A stretch of DNA of 64,000 nucleotides, from the NCBI GenBank assembly GCA_937146765.1, contig CAKZRP010000067.1:123216-187215 (forward strand). Reading direction: 5' to 3'. The translations under genes and the position numbers were made by a program. The DNA is from an uncultured Paracoccaceae bacterium (GTDB lineage Bacteria > Pseudomonadota > Alphaproteobacteria > Rhodobacterales > Rhodobacteraceae). Every line of letters begins with the position of its first letter. The stretch's first letter is position 1. A model generated the notes under the pieces. It had not been told where the DNA came from. It did no database searches and worked only from the letters and a program-made list of their open reading frames with translations. This document shows, piece after piece, positions 22,550 to 31,314 of the stretch.

Positions 22550-22903
22550 ATGAAGATTGTCTACCTGTGTCTTGGACTGATCAGCCTGGCCCTGGCGCTG
22601 GTAGGCGTTCTCCTTCCACTTCTGCCCACGGTTCCCTTCCTGCTCCTCTGTGCTTTCTTCTTTGCTCGCTCTTCCGAACGGTTGCACGGGTGGCTGCTGG
22701 ATCACCCACATTTCGGTCCTTTGATCCTAGATTGGAACGAAAACGGTGCCATTCGACCGAATGCAAAAAAGGCGGCCACCCTGTCCGTGGCCGCCGTCCT
22801 TGGCGTGTCTCTGGTCTTACATGTACCGGGTCACGTGTTGCTTATTCAGATGGTGACCCTCAGCGCCGTCATGATCTTTATCTGGACCCGGCCTAACGGC
22901 TGA
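22550..22903 (+). CDS. DUF454 (YbaN family) inner-membrane protein
   Basis: The 117-residue protein has two or three membrane segments (about 5-40 and 75-115) and the DUF454 signature FFARSSERLHGWLLDHPHFG. Its function is not established. It is last in rph-rdgB-hemW-DUF454. Its 3' end overlaps the 3' end of parB on the other strand by 11 bases, so the two mRNAs would be complementary at their ends unless transcription stops precisely. Confidence 0.85.
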   Translation: MKIVYLCLGLISLALALVGVLLPLLPTVPFLLLCAFFFARSSERLHGWLLDHPHFGPLILDWNENGAIRPNAKKAATLSVAAVLGVSLVLHVPGHVLLIQMVTLSAVMIFIWTRPNG

Positions 22904-23792
22904 GGATATTGCAGAGCTCGTCCAGCTGATCGAGACTTTCATAAGATATCGTCACCGTACCGGCTTCTCCCCCGGCCTTGTGATCGATCGAGACTTTCAT
23001 CCGCAGCACTGCGGACAGATCTCCTTCCAATGCGCGCGTGTCCGCGTCCTTTTCAGCCTGCGTCTTGAACTTCTTCGGAGCAGTGGCCCCCGTAACGCCA
23101 GCGGCATCCTTCTTCACCAGAGCTTCCGTCGCCCGAACCGACAGTCCACCTTTGACGATTTTGCGCGCCAGTTCAGACGCATTGTCCGAAGTTATCAAGG
23201 CGCGGGCATGTCCTGCCGACAGCTTTCGATCCAACACCAGCGATTGAACATCTTCGGGAAGGTGCAGAAGGCGGACCAGGTTGGCAATATGGCTTCGACT
23301 CTTGCCGAGCGCCTCTGCCATCTTCTCCTGGGTGTGGCCAAAGCGATCCATCAACTGCTTGTAGCTCTGTGCCTCTTCGAGAGCATTCAGATCAGAACGC
23401 TGAATATTCTCGATGATCGCGACTTCCAGCATTTCCACATCGGAGTAATCCCGGATGAGAACAGGAACCTCATGCAGTTGCGCCGCTTGAGCCGCACGCC
23501 AGCGACGTTCGCCGGCCACAATTTCAAACATCCCGCCATCACGTGGTCGAACGATCAGAGGTTGAAGAACTCCCTTCTCCTTGATCGATGCCGTCAGATC
23601 ATCCAAATCTTCCTGCAAGAATTGCCGACGCGGCTGGTCTGGATTGGCCCGCACTTTTTCGATGGGAACCAGAATTTCGGCATTTCTCGGGGTTCGGGAC
23701 CCTTCCGTGCTTACAGGCTCAGCATTCACATCCGCCATCAAAGCAGAGAGTCCCCTGCCCAATCCGCGCGGTTTGGGTTTCTTGTCATTCAT
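22893..23792 (-). CDS. parB: Chromosome partitioning protein ParB
   Basis: The 299-residue protein has the N-terminal ParA-interacting stretch (KKPKPRGLGRGLSALM), the CTPase/ParB domain with GERRWRAAQAA, a helix-turn-helix (HTQEKMAEALGKSRSHIANL) and a C-terminal dimerisation segment. It binds parS, slides as a clamp and forms the partition complex. The ATG at 23792 has GAGGGG six bases upstream; the track adds a GTG codon. It lies 17 bases after parA, and two parS sites are in the same operon. Confidence 0.97.
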   Translation of the reverse strand: MNDKKPKPRGLGRGLSALMADVNAEPVSTEGSRTPRNAEILVPIEKVRANPDQPRRQFLQEDLDDLTASIKEKGVLQPLIVRPRDGGMFEIVAGERRWRAAQAAQLHEVPVLIRDYSDVEMLEVAIIENIQRSDLNALEEAQSYKQLMDRFGHTQEKMAEALGKSRSHIANLVRLLHLPEDVQSLVLDRKLSAGHARALITSDNASELARKIVKGGLSVRATEALVKKDAAGVTGATAPKKFKTQAEKDADTRALEGDLSAVLRMKVSIDHKAGGEAGTVTISYESLDQLDELCNILSR

Positions 23793-23809
23793 CACATGCC
23801 CCTCTTATC

Positions 23810-24622
23810 TTATTCCGCCGCAATATCCTGGTGGTTTGCGATCAATTCCGCCGCCAATTGCCGATAAGCTTTGGCCCCAAGCGACGTCGGATCATAGTTC
23901 AGAACCGGCATGGCATAGGAAGGGGCCTCGCTGACACGGACGTTCCGGGGGATCTTGGTTCGAAAAACGAGATCTCCAAGGTTCTCACGCGCATCTTGCT
24001 CCACCTGTTGCGAAAGGTTGTTGCGGCGGTCGTACATTGTCAACACAACACCTTCGATGCGCAACCGCGGGTTGGCCGCCTGCCGCACTTCCCGGATCGT
24101 CAACATCAATTGCGACAAGCCCTCAAGAGCAAAAAACTCGCTCTGAAGCGGAATCAACACGGAATGGGCCGCAACCATGGCGTTTACAGTCAAAAGGTTC
24201 AACGAAGGGGGGCAATCGATGAGAATATAGTCCCAGTCATATTCGCCCATAGCTGGCTGCCGCAAAGCGTCATGCAGCAAAAAACTCCGCTTTTCGTTCG
24301 AGATCAGCTCGATATCCGCCGAACTGAGATCAACGGTAGCCGGGATGATACAAAGATCTTCCAGATCCGTCTTCCGGATCACCTCCGCGAGGTCAGCTTC
24401 CTCCACCAAGAGATCGTAGGTTGTGTGTTCGCGTGTATCCGCTTCGATGCCCAGGCCGGTTGACGCATTGCCCTGTGGATCAAGATCCACCAAGAGCACG
24501 CGATACCCCTCTTCCACCAGGGCTGCAGCCAGATTGATAGCTGTCGTTGTCTTCCCGACCCCCCCTTTCTGGTTTGCAATAGCGATGATACGGGGGTTTC
24601 CGGAAAGGGACAGATCAGACAC
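23810..24622 (-). CDS. parA: Chromosome partitioning ATPase ParA
   Basis: The 270-residue ATPase has the deviant Walker [18 protein letters not shown] and Walker B-like [14 protein letters not shown] and [11 protein letters not shown] motifs. With ParB it moves newly replicated origins. The track starts at a TTG; the GTG at 24622 has GGAG six bases before it and overlaps the rsmG stop by 8 bases, so I prefer it. Length is normal for chromosomal ParA. Confidence 0.97.
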
Positions 24623-25232
24623 GCTCAACTCCGTTGATCCTCAAGATGACGGCCTCGGCCTCCGTAAGACTTGTAATCTCTTCACAGTCAAACCGCCATT
24701 GGCTGCGTGCGTTATCCACTTCTTTTTTCCAGTTTGCCCCTTTTGGAAACACGGCCGTCCCGGTGGGGGCCAGGTGACGCTCACAGAATCCCAGGAGAAT
24801 GCTCAAATCAGCCAATGCACGGGCAGACAGGATCCCGACATTCTGAGGTTCGGCCTTCTCGATTCGCTCGCAGAGCACCGAGATTGCAACTCCACACTCC
24901 CGCGCGACGTTTCGTAGGAACGCGCATTTTCTCTGGTCACTTTCCAATAGGGTGACCGCAAGATCCGGTGCATGTTCTGCAGCGAGAATGGCAACGATCA
25001 CACCAGGCAACCCTCCCCCGCTGCCGATGTCCAGCCAAGTTTTCCCCGGCTGAACCGTTTCAAAAACCTGCAAGCTGTCCAGGATATGTCGAGACCAAAG
25101 ATCATCAAGGCTTTTGCGAGACACCAGATTGATCTTCGGATTCCACTTCTGCAGCGTGTGTGCATAGAGATCCAATCTCTCCAATGTTTCACGTGAAACA
25201 TCGAAATGCCGCAAAACGAGGTCACGGCTCAT
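24615..25232 (-). CDS. rsmG: 16S rRNA (guanine527-N7)-methyltransferase RsmG
   Basis: The 205-residue SAM methyltransferase has the [18 protein letters not shown] motif and the conserved KINLVSRKS and SARALADL elements. It modifies G527 of 16S rRNA, and its loss gives low-level streptomycin resistance in other bacteria. Codons 11-16 (encoding DVSRET) coincide with a perfect parS site. Its ATG overlaps the mnmG stop as ATGA. Confidence 0.96.
25185..25200. promoter_or_regulatory. parS: parS site 1, ParB-binding palindrome
   Basis: TGTTTCACGTGAAACA is a perfect 16-base palindrome identical to the consensus parS. It lies inside the 5' coding part of rsmG, about 1.4 kb upstream of parB and 5 kb from the candidate oriC. 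It should nucleate ParB loading. Confidence 0.95.
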
Positions 25233-27103
25233 GCAGACTTCGCCTCTGATCTCTGATTGCGCTTCAACGTCCCGAGGATCAGGGCCAAGGCCGCTGGTGT
25301 GATGCCTTCAATTCGCCCAGCCTGCGCCAGGTTGACTGGTCGCACCCGCTCCAGTTTGGATCGTAACTCATTTGACAAGCCATCAATCGCGTAGGAAAAA
25401 TCCGCCGGGATGGCGTGATCTTCGTCCTTCTTCAGCGCCGCTACCTCGCGCTCCTGTCTGGATATGTAATTGGCGTACAGCGCATCCCGCATGATCTGCA
25501 GACGGATCGCGTCAGGTGTCGTATCCAGTTCGGGGAAGAGCGGCAGCACATCATTGAATTCGACATCGGGGAATGCCAGGACATCGATCCCAGTCCGTTT
25601 GTTTCCGTCCTGATTGACCGCAATACCGGCTTCGACCAGTTGCTTGGGCGTGAAAACCTTTTCTTGCAGGCGAGAACGAACCTGGGTCAAAGCCTCACTT
25701 TTTTTCTGAAAGCTGATGGCGCGCCGTTCTGCAATGCAACCAAGTTCCATTGCCAGAGGTGTAAGCCTCTGATCCGCGTTGTCCGCGCGAAGCGACAGTC
25801 GATACTCTGCCCGGGACGTGAACATCCGATAGGGTTCCGAAACACCATTGGTGATCAGATCATCGATCATGACCCCGATGTAGCTGGAGGACCGGCTCAA
25901 GACTAGTGCCTCCCTCCCCTGGGCTCTTAGCGCAGCGTTGAGGCCGGCGACCAGCCCCTGAGCAGCAGCTTCTTCATAGCCAGTGGTGCCATTGATCTGC
26001 CCTGCCAGGAAAAGACCGGAAACCGCGCGCAGTTCCAACGAGGGTTGAAGCGCGCGTGGGTCGACGTAGTCATACTCAATCGCGTAACCCGGTTGCAGGA
26101 TGACTGCATTCTCCAATCCAGTGATGGAGCGCACATAGTCAACTTGCACATCTTGCGGAAGGCTGGTTGAGATGCCATTTGGATAGACCGTGTGGTCCTC
26201 CAATCCTTCCGGTTCCAAGAAGATCTGATGTGAGCTTTTATCCGCGAACCGGACCACCTTGTCCTCGATGGAGGGACAATAGCGTGGCCCCACCCCTTCG
26301 ATGTGCCCACCGTACATGGCGGAACGCCCGAGATTATCTCGGATGATCTCATGCGTCCGCTCATTTGTATGCGTGATCCCGCAAGAGATCTGACGTGCAA
26401 AGGGACGATCGTTCAAAAAGGAGAAGACGGTCGGGTCATCGTCGCCGGGTTGGCTGTCGAGAATGTCCCATTGAATGGTTCGACCGTCCAGCCTTGGCGG
26501 GGTGCCCGTCTTCAGACGCCCCATCGGAAGAGAGAAGGTCTTCAACCGCTCGGCCAGTCGGATCGAAGGTTTATCTCCCATGCGACCTCCCGGATAAGAG
26601 ACGTCCCCAATATGAATTAACCCATTCAGGAACGTTCCAGAGGTCAGGACCACAGCGCGCGCGGTCACCTCGCTGCCGTCAGCGAGGACAACGCCGAAAA
26701 CAGTCTGATCTGGTCCCATCAGAAGGTCTGTCACTTCCTGTTCCAGAATATCGAGGTTTGCCTGTTCCTCCGTGACTTTCAAAGCCTCACGTCGGTAGAT
26801 CGCGCGGTCTGCCTGGGCGCGTGGTCCCTGGACGGCCGGCCCCTTGCGGCGGTTTAGAAGGCGAAACTGAATGCCGGCAAGATCCGCCAGCCGACCCATG
26901 ACACCATCCATGGCGTCGATTTCCCGGACCAGATGCCCCTTTCCAAGGCCTCCAATCGCCGGATTGCAGGACATGACACCGATGCCTTGTTTTTGAAGGG
27001 TGACCAAGGCTGTTCGCGAACCCATCCGGGCCGCAGCATGAGCTGCTTCCGTACCGGCGTGACCGCCGCCAACAACCACAACATCAAACTGTGAATGTTT
27101 CAC
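25229..27103 (-). CDS. mnmG: tRNA uridine-5-carboxymethylaminomethyl modification enzyme MnmG (GidA)
   Basis: The FAD protein works with MnmE to modify U34 of tRNAs. The N-terminal FAD fold [20 protein letters not shown], the QGPRAQADR motif and the C-terminal helical domain ([12 protein letters not shown]) are present. I start at the GTG at 27103, which has the GAGGAG site eight bases upstream; the ORF track uses a GTG three codons earlier that would sit one base from that site. The site itself overlaps the mnmE stop. A perfect parS straddles the start. Confidence 0.95.
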
Positions 27104-27111
27104 GTGAAACA
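27096..27111. promoter_or_regulatory. parS: parS site 2, overlapping the mnmG start
   Basis: A second perfect TGTTTCACGTGAAACA lies between the mnmG ribosome site and its first codons. It is 1.9 kb from parS site 1 and about 3.4 kb from the candidate oriC. Two exact copies of a 16-mer inside the parAB operon cannot be chance. Confidence 0.95.
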
Positions 27112-28430: not shown

Positions 28431-29699
28431 TTAGGTGTTCATTGAGTCGAAGAACTCAGAATTTGTCTTTGTTTGCTTGAGCTTAGACAAAAGGAACTCG
28501 ATCGCGTCGGTGGTCCCCATCGGGTTCAGGATGCGGCGCAGGACAAAGGTCTTGGCCAGATCTCCCTTGTCCACCAACAGATCCTCTTTCCGGGTGCCGG
28601 ATTTGAGAATGTCGATAGCCGGGAAGACACGTTTGTCGGCGATCTTGCGATCCAGCACGATTTCCGAGTTACCGGTGCCCTTGAACTCTTCGAAAATCAC
28701 CTCGTCCATCCGGCTTCCGGTATCGATCAGCGCGGTTGCGATGATGGTGAGCGAGCCGCCTTCCTCGATGTTGCGCGCTGCACCAAAGAAGCGCTTCGGA
28801 CGCTGCAGGGCGTTTGCATCGACACCGCCGGTCAAGACCTTACCCGAGGAAGGCACCACAGTGTTAAAAGCACGACCAAGTCTAGTGATGGAGTCGAGGA
28901 GAATAACAACATCTCGTTTGTGCTCTACAAGACGTTTGGCTTTTTCGATCACCATTTCAGAGACAGCAACGTGGCGGGTGGCCGGTTCGTCAAAGGTAGA
29001 GGACACCACCTCGCCTTTTACCGAGCGCTGCATGTCCGTCACCTCTTCCGGGCGCTCGTCGATCAGCAAGACGATCAGATAGCACTCCGGGTGGTTGCGC
29101 TCGATGGAATGGGCGATGTTCTGCAGCAGAACGGTCTTGCCGGTGCGAGGCGGCGCCACGATCAGGGAGCGTTGACCCTTGCCGATCGGCGACACCAGGT
29201 CGATCACCCGGGCGGAGCGGTCCTTGACTGTCGGGTCCTCGATTTCCATCTTCAGGCGCTCATCCGGATAGAGCGGCGTCAGGTTGTCGAAAGCGATCTT
29301 GTGACGAGCCTTCTCGGGCTCTTCAAAGTTGATCTTGGTGACGGCGGTCAACGCGAAATAGCGTTCATTCTCCAGCGGTGCCTTGATCTGGCCCTCTACG
29401 GTATCCCCGGTGCGCAGAGACCATTGGCGGATCATTTCTGGAGAGACATAGATGTCGTCCGGACCCGGCAGATAATTGGCTTCAGGCGAGCGCAGGAAGC
29501 CGAACCCGTCCTGCAGAACTTCCAATACACCGTCGCCGCCGATGTCCCAGCCTTCATCCGCGCGTTCTCGCAGGATCTGGAACATCATCTCGCCCTTGCG
29601 CATGGTCGAGGCGTTCTCGATCTCAAGATCCTCCGCCATGGCAAGGAGGTCCTTGGGGCTCTTGGCCTTGAGATCAGACAGGTTCAGGAATTCGTTCAT
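28431..29699 (-). CDS. rho: Transcription termination factor Rho
   Basis: The 422-residue hexameric RNA helicase has the cold-shock-like RNA-binding N-terminus ([21 protein letters not shown]), Walker [15 protein letters not shown] and the secondary [12 protein letters not shown] motif. I use the ATG at 29699; the track adds a GTG and one codon. No obvious leader structure for autoregulation was found in the 142 bases to hemJ. Confidence 0.97.
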
Positions 29700-29841
29700 T
29701 CGCACGGGGCCCTTGTTCCCCCTGACGATCAGAGGGCGTCACTGTATCAAATACGGAAAATGCGGGAATCCCGGACGGGCCCGCTTTATCCCCAGATAGT
29801 GAGTCCGGAACCGTGAGTCAAACCCCTCGTCGTTGCCTTTC

Positions 29842-30291
29842 TCAGAACTTGAAGATCACCGAGACGACAATCACGACCATCAGAAGGGTTGGGACCTCAT
29901 TCATCATGCGAAACTGACGCCCTGTCAGGGTGTTCCGGCCCGCTTCAAAGTCCTTGTGGCGGTACATCAGCCAATGGTGGAACCAGGTCATGGCAAGAAC
30001 AGAGATGCCCTTGGTCCAGGGCCAGATATAGGACCAGTCCACCAGACCGGGTGTGAATACCATGAAAAGCCCAGCTGCCCAGGTCACAACACTTGCTGGT
30101 CCCATGATCAATTTCAGAAGCTTGCGCTCCATGACCAGGAAGATCGGTTTCACTGCTTCGACCTTCTCAGCCTGTTCCACGTGATAGACGAACAGACGGG
30201 GCAGGTAGAACAGACCTGCCATCCAGCTGATCACGGCCATGATGTGTAGGGATTTCGCGTAAGGATAGAGAGTGAACATCAGATCGGTCAT
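29842..30291 (-). CDS. hemJ: Protoporphyrinogen IX oxidase HemJ (UPF0093)
   Basis: The 149-residue membrane protein has four hydrophobic segments and the conserved histidine near the start (YAKSLHIMAVISWMAG LFYLPRL region), typical of HemJ, which oxidises protoporphyrinogen to protoporphyrin in many alphaproteobacteria lacking HemY/HemG activity. The ORF track opens 14 codons earlier, but MTDLMFTLYPYAK at 30291 is the usual beginning. It is the last leftward gene before the candidate origin. The classical neighbour hemE is absent here. Confidence 0.9.
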   Translation of the reverse strand: MTDLMFTLYPYAKSLHIMAVISWMAGLFYLPRLFVYHVEQAEKVEAVKPIFLVMERKLLKLIMGPASVVTWAAGLFMVFTPGLVDWSYIWPWTKGISVLAMTWFHHWLMYRHKDFEAGRNTLTGRQFRMMNEVPTLLMVVIVVSVIFKF

Positions 30292-30334
30292 GTCGATGCG
30301 GGGATCCTCGTGGCGCAGGGTCTGGGTGACCACT

Positions 30335-30378
30335 CATAAATATTTAAAAGATTTATAAGGATGATGTTTTTGTAGTGC
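30335..30378. other. AT-rich tract of the candidate origin (possible unwinding element)
   Basis: Sequence such as ATAAATATTTAAAAGATTTA followed by a T-run is exceptional in this GC-rich window and lies on one side of the DnaA-box-like cluster, as expected for a DNA-unwinding element. It also adjoins the upstream region of hemJ and could in part be its promoter. Confidence 0.55.
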
Positions 30379-30525
30379 ACCCCGAAAACGGTGGATTACT
30401 GACTCGTCACCGCGCTTCTGCACAGGGTGGACAAAATCCTTGCCTTATTCCTGCCGCATGGGTGAATAAGTGGTTAACGACTTGTAAAATAAGGGCTGTT
30501 AATAAACGGTTTACTCCCTTTGATC

Positions 30526-30588
30526 TGGGGATAAGACCGGGAGAATTCGGGACGGGAGGAGTTATCCACGTGATCGGACTTATCCCAA
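30526..30588. promoter_or_regulatory. Cluster of DnaA-box-like nonamers
   Basis: Within 63 bases are TTATCCCCA (minus, 30526-30534), TTATCCACG (plus, 30562-30570; one mismatch to the consensus) and TTATCCCAA (plus, 30580-30588). Weaker TTATT-type boxes lie 60-80 bases to the left. Confidence 0.65.
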
Positions 30589-30714
30589 TCCCCGCTGGAG
30601 GAATCGTGAAGGAATCGCCTCAAATTTCGGGGTTTTCCAGACCCTTGCGCCGCAAGGGCAAAATCATACAAAACACCCCTGAACGATCAGACGCTTTCCC
30701 ATAGGGTTTTCCAC

Positions 30715-31314
30715 ATGAGTACCCACATCGTGCTGGCCTCCAGCTCCGAGATCCGCGCCCACCTGCTGCGCCAGGCGCGCATTAACTTTTTGGTTGAAGG
30801 GGCTCGCGTCGATGAAGGCGCAATTAAGGCAGCCCTGCTGGCCGAAGGCGCCTCGCCGCGTGACATCGCCGATACATTGGCCGAGGCGAAGGCCAGAAAA
30901 GTCTCCGGCAAGCATCCCGGCGTGCTGGTTCTCGGTTGCGATCAGGTGCTGGATTTCGAGGGGAAACTGCTGTCGAAACCGGAAAGCCCTGAGGCGGCGT
31001 TGCGCCAGTTGATGGACATGCGTGGTAAACGCCATATGCTGCTGTCAGCGGCGGTGATCTATCGCGATGGGGAACCGCTCTGGCGACACGTCGGGCAGGT
31101 CCGCATGGTGATGCGCCAGGCGAGCGACGCCTACCTCGAGGGCTATGTGACCCGGAACTGGGAGAGCATCCGCCATGCGGTGGGGGCTTATAAACTGGAA
31201 GAAGAAGGCGTCCGTTTGTTCACCATGATTGACGGCAGCTACTTTAATGTCTTGGGTTTGCCGATGTTGGAACTGATAAACTATCTCGGGCTGCAGGGGA
31301 TCATCGAGCAATGA
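30715..31314 (+). CDS. maf: Maf-like nucleoside triphosphate pyrophosphatase
   Basis: The 199-residue protein belongs to the Maf family, which hydrolyses non-canonical or modified nucleotides and has been linked to division control. The opening IVLASSSEIRAHLLRQA, the catalytic GCDQVLDFEGKLLSKP and YKLEEEGVRLF match. It is the YceF-like branch rather than the dTTPase branch, judging from CDQ. The ATG is 126 bases beyond the last DnaA-like box, and the stop overlaps the aroE ATG (ATGA). Confidence 0.93.
   Translation: MSTHIVLASSSEIRAHLLRQARINFLVEGARVDEGAIKAALLAEGASPRDIADTLAEAKARKVSGKHPGVLVLGCDQVLDFEGKLLSKPESPEAALRQLMDMRGKRHMLLSAAVIYRDGEPLWRHVGQVRMVMRQASDAYLEGYVTRNWESIRHAVGAYKLEEEGVRLFTMIDGSYFNVLGLPMLELINYLGLQGIIEQ

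Follow-up and report, generated by a model that had tools for sequence, protein, structure and literature searches.

A probable DnaA-dependent chromosome origin between hemJ and maf in a roseobacter genome

The origin of replication of Caulobacter crescentus (Cori) lies between hemE and COG1806 (PMC1914354). Closer to the organism considered here, the oriCs of 101 Rhodobacteraceae chromosomes have been predicted with Ori-Finder (PMC6699656); the available text of that study describes the same family and the same criteria as used here (DnaA boxes, skew minimum and proximity to parAB) and does not name the flanking genes, so that a position equivalent to the hemJ-maf gap described below is presumed. 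The origin region of R. sphaeroides was identified by GC skew together with partition loci (PMC6315104), and the literature searched contained no experimentally mapped roseobacter origin. Prediction of origins in Rhodobacteraceae is already published, and the present locus adds another case. The basal unwinding system of bacterial oriC is described as a DnaA box, a spacer and a set of DnaA-trios (PMC8287927).

The window analysed here is a stretch of 64,000 nucleotides from an uncultured Paracoccaceae bacterium, whose assembly comprises 4.70 Mb in 81 contigs; it belongs to a contig of 187 kb (C67), of which approximately 184 kb was scanned, outside a 3.2-kb gap. A gene-free stretch of 423 bp at 30292-30714 is bounded by divergent genes, with the ATG of hemJ at 30291 (- strand) and that of maf at 30715 (+ strand), and has a GC content of 49% vs ~61% for the whole window. 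No Rfam family scored above threshold in this gap. The preliminary description proposed it as the chromosomal oriC, and the features observed in the sequence, namely position and gene order, a skew switch, a cluster of DnaA boxes, an AT-rich tract, the position of parS and conservation through changes of the flanking genes, agree with that proposal. On these grounds we consider it almost certain that 30292-30714 is the DnaA-dependent oriC of the main chromosome.

Gene order and the Caulobacter-type origin

We compared 98 loci, 80 of them from named strains (mostly Tritonibacter, Leisingera, Phaeobacter and Ruegeria) and 18 from the same genus, including the window's own; some strains are present in both sets. 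The order parB-parA-rsmG-mnmG-mnmE-rho-hemJ-gap-maf-aroE-coaE-dnaQ-secB was found in 98/98 loci, as far as each reaches, and the hemJ-gap-maf arrangement is present in all 97 relatives' loci with a gap length of 403-425 bp. One record, titled Nocardioides marinus DP1N28-1 (L058), carries a typical roseobacter origin region with a HemJ that is 80% identical; the name of this record looks wrong.

The locus shares with Cori an AT-rich gap containing DnaA boxes, the rho side to the left and maf-aroE-coaE to the right, an order that was read in related families. Cori is bordered by hemE and COG1806 (PPSR), whereas the window's gap has hemJ and maf as its borders instead. Among maf loci from other alphaproteobacterial families, 12/28 have at least three near-perfect boxes clustered ~720-1040 bp upstream of maf, and the space between this cluster and maf is occupied by a kinase/pyrophosphorylase (PPSR) gene. 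The order in one such locus (L235) is rho, hemH, hemE, gap, PPSR, maf, with the box cluster in the hemE-PPSR gap, and in a second locus (L236) rho, hemE and PPSR are likewise the neighbours. The preliminary description was correct that hemE is absent here and that hemJ and rho occupy its side; the hemE of this genome was found on another contig (G000:C66:51440-52459, L001), divergent from an adjoining hemC-like gene, while a search of the window's whole assembly gave no match to PPSR (PF03618, COG1806). The gap lacks the hemE and COG1806/PPSR borders of a Cori-type origin and retains its wider gene order on both the rho side and the maf-aroE-coaE side. In Rhodobacteraceae, hemE, its neighbour hemH and the COG1806 gene no longer border the origin. 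By position the window's locus is homologous to the Caulobacter-type origin, and the simplest account is that the same ancestral origin stayed put while its borders lost hemE, hemH and PPSR.

The gap also differs from Cori in that its CtrA sites are not convincing and that no IHF consensus site (WATCAANNNNTTR) was found in it by a consensus scan, which degenerate sites could escape. Silencing of this origin by CtrA in the Caulobacter manner, via sites resembling TTAA-N7-TTAA, is unlikely: the window has four sites with one mismatch at 30344-30513, and relatives carry 1.29 such pairs per gap vs 0.41 in block shuffles, but the preference for a spacing of 7 is slight (1.14, vs 0.83-0.84 at 6 and 8) and not clear in the order-wide set, and there is no perfect site in the window. 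GANTC, the candidate target of CcrM methylation, occurs 3.58 times per gap in relatives vs 1.57 times in shuffles, and 0.57 times per 423 bp in the window. Roughly half of the relatives retain GANTC at 30601 and 30612 but with a different N, a pattern that is suggestive only, and consistent with selection for methylation.

DnaA boxes and a candidate melting element

The gap contains 11 nonamers with at most two mismatches from TTATCCACA, where the mean on C67 is 0.65 per 423 bp and the maximum in any other 423-bp window of the ~184 kb scanned is 4. At one mismatch or fewer there are 3 sites in the gap and at most 2 elsewhere on C67; no perfect TTATCCACA box occurs in the gap of this strain. 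The cluster of DnaA boxes expected of a bacterial oriC is present. All three boxes named in the preliminary description (TTATCCACG, TTATCCCCA and TTATCCCAA) are exact, though the one at 30562, described as the best, is not the most conserved (Table 1). Relatives do not conserve the sites at 30461, 30469, 30497 and 30633, which are probably chance matches.

Alignment of the relatives' gaps (83 distinct sequences) gave a median identity of 49%, with sharp conserved blocks: the AT tract by hemJ, the element at 30359-30375, the boxes at 30390, 30416, 30526 and 30707, the TTATCC cores of the sites at 30562 and 30580, and further blocks ahead of maf. The box at 30707 overlaps the maf start codon, its last base being the A of that codon. 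The AT-rich tract was also noted earlier, and its composition is that of an unwinding region: the 60 bp from 30329 have 30% GC, and no 200-bp window on the contig has a lower GC content than the one starting at 30327.

Table 1. Features of the candidate origin and its surroundings (positions in the window).
Feature	Position	Strand	Remarks
parB (22893-23795) and parA (23810-24628)	22893..24628	-	ParB and ParA family matches
parS TGTTTCACGTGAAACA, within rsmG	25185..25200		perfect site
parS TGTTTCACGTGAAACA, start of mnmG	27096..27111		perfect site
rho	28431..29705	-	TIGR00767
hemJ-like gene, left border	29842..30291	-	TIGR00701, E 8.8e-37, 126.4 bits, under curated cut-off 138.05
Probable oriC core, intergenic, hemJ/maf	30292..30714		box density, lowest-GC stretch, skew minimum, conserved length
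AT-rich tract adjoining hemJ, probable unwinding region	30329..30358		low GC; T/C- and A-rich in relatives
Trinucleotide-rich conserved element CTACAAAAACATCATCC	30359..30375	-	alignment; probable DnaA single-strand binding element, DnaA-trio-like (putative role)
DnaA box TAATCCACC	30390..30398	-	≤2 mismatches in 100% of aligned relatives; 14 bp from trinucleotide element
DnaA-box-like TTCTGCACA	30416..30424	+	≤2 mismatches in 93% of relatives
DnaA box TTATCCCCA	30526..30534	-	relatives: ≤1 mismatch 89%, ≤2 mismatches 95%
DnaA box TTATCCACG	30562..30570	+	≤2 mismatches in 54% of relatives; TTATCC core conserved
DnaA-box-like TTATCCCAA	30580..30588	+	≤2 mismatches in 52% of relatives; TTATCC core conserved
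Two GANTC (30601, 30612), candidate CcrM methylation sites	30601..30616		third at 30401
Possible maf promoter, TTGCGC then CATACAAAAC	30645..30676	+	conserved blocks CTTGCG, CATACAAAC; putative promoter role
DnaA box TTTTCCACA	30707..30715	+	relatives: ≤1 mismatch 96%, ≤2 mismatches 98%
maf-like gene, right border	30715..31314	+	NF002690, E 6.1e-58, under cut-off

The element at 30359-30375 (GGATGATGTTTTTGTAG in the alignment) is among the most conserved blocks of the aligned gaps. The assembly contains a single exact copy of its 16-mer, and the next best match has 2 mismatches. In other genera the corresponding place is taken by a run of CAT, CAA or ATC trinucleotides, and a related element is kept in loci without hemJ and in loci without maf; a search for it in other families, based on counts of mismatches, gave chance-level matches only. 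The element, with a DnaA box on one side and the AT tract on the other, is the likely melting site. The element was also considered as a promoter of hemJ, which was set aside since a related element persists where the neighbour is rho and not hemJ. Two similar conserved elements lie near the ends of the gap and face outward, CTACAAAAACATCATCC toward hemJ (30359-30375) and CATACAAAACACCC toward maf (30667-30680); the two may be shared promoter parts or paired unwinding elements.

The arrangement resembles the basal unwinding system (PMC8287927) in its minus-strand order of box 30390-30398, a 14-bp spacer, the trinucleotide element and the AT tract. Under the published rule, applied here as three or more 3'-NAN-5' trios no further than 16 bp from a DnaA box, the window's element is degenerate and falls short of three trios at that place, and a three-trio match elsewhere in the gap sits at a non-conserved box. 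Runs of 5-10 in-phase trios are present in several genera, and with them loci L154, L155, L156 and L160 satisfy the rule. We therefore describe the window's element as trio-like by position.

GC skew, segregation sites and natural deletions

The preliminary description held that a skew minimum clearly elsewhere on the chromosome would speak against an origin at this gap; the minimum was found here on C67, in a same-genus genome and in most of the shorter loci of 78 relatives. The cumulative GC-skew minimum of C67 falls at window position 30180, ~110 bp from the gap. As the window's own assembly is split into 81 contigs, whole-chromosome skew was taken, mostly in spread stretches, from the same-genus genome G007, which has a contig of 3,200,938 bases that starts at dnaA. 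Across 39 such stretches of 20 kb, arm 1 has a mean skew of +0.038 (18/19 positive) and arm 2 a mean of -0.031 (17/20 negative; Mann-Whitney p ~2e-7 for the difference), with a return switch near 1.38-1.40 Mb that gives nearly equal arms of ~1.56 and ~1.64 Mb. Over a contiguous 431-kb stretch that runs through the joined contig ends, the minimum lies at 3,030,353, 60 bp inside the maf gene beside the gap (maf spans 3,029,816-3,030,412, followed by the gap). The skew minimum expected of an oriC on a whole replicon is thus found at the gap in G007 and on the window's own contig. In the 16-kb loci of relatives (n=78) the minimum lies at most 500 bp from mid-gap in 83%, which is partly a gene-direction effect, since the change of gene direction at the gap confounds the local skew switch in part.

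Two parS sites and parAB, placed within 8 kb by the earlier reading, do lie 3-8 kb from the gap, and the two are the only perfect TGTTTCACGTGAAACA sites in the 4.70-Mb assembly. This spacing fits an origin-proximal segregation centre, as expected. Both parS sites are within coding sequence, one in rsmG and the other in the first codons of mnmG.

Natural deletions of one or the other neighbour are found elsewhere in Rhodobacteraceae. Seven loci of other genera in the family (L152, L161, L164-L168) gave no detectable hemJ, and in them rho borders the gap directly, 540-620 bp upstream of maf as measured from the conserved part of Rho. In two genomes of one genus (G023 and G039; loci L238 and L239) the maf orthologue is missing and the gap, with DnaA boxes present, lies between hemJ and aroE; that of L238 contains the element CTACTGAATCATCATCC followed by a pyrimidine-rich tract. 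The gap thus persists through the loss of one neighbour or the other, which argues against a simple promoter region. A scan of the gap found neither a sigma-70 promoter consensus nor a terminator. The view that the gap serves hemJ and maf only as a divergent promoter region, its conservation and AT content reflecting gene regulation, draws on the divergent genes on either side and on the promoter-like conserved blocks upstream of maf. It is made very improbable by the 11 DnaA-like boxes, by the survival of the gap and its trinucleotide element after loss of hemJ or of maf, and by the whole-replicon skew of G007, which switches at the gap. An origin at or near dnaA, which is often at oriC in bacteria and here lies on the same contig, 145 kb away, is most improbable, as the skew of G007 does not change sign across dnaA (+0.052 after it, with the cumulative curve already rising before) and dnaA in the window's genome has no dense group of boxes around it.

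Proposed working of the origin

Returning to the gap as oriC, we propose that DnaA would bind the box array from 30390 to 30715 and oligomerise, extending from the box at 30390-30398 onto the trinucleotide element at 30359-30375, whereupon the adjacent AT tract at 30329-30358 would melt. Two helicases would be loaded, and replication would proceed in both directions to a terminus roughly half a chromosome distant. The parS sites, 3 and 5 kb off, would act with ParAB to move the copied origin, and CcrM methylation of the GANTC sites in the origin may report the replication state. Binding of DnaA, the site of melting and the role of methylation at the gap are those that we infer from the arrangement of these elements. 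A more general, tentative and rather doubtful proposal is that Rhodobacteraceae origins unwind via a divergent trinucleotide element (CAT, CAA or ATC repeats; fixed in the clade of this strain as CTACAAAAACATCATCC), unlike a standard DnaA-trio, and that the ancestral border genes and control by CtrA and IHF were lost while GANTC was kept.

Taken together, these data locate the probable start of replication of roseobacter chromosomes at base-pair scale in ~100 genomes. Looking next to hemE or COG1806, the customary way to locate an alphaproteobacterial origin, does not work in Rhodobacteraceae even though the locus is the same by position, and the conserved block beside the AT tract supplies a defined, conserved candidate melting element.
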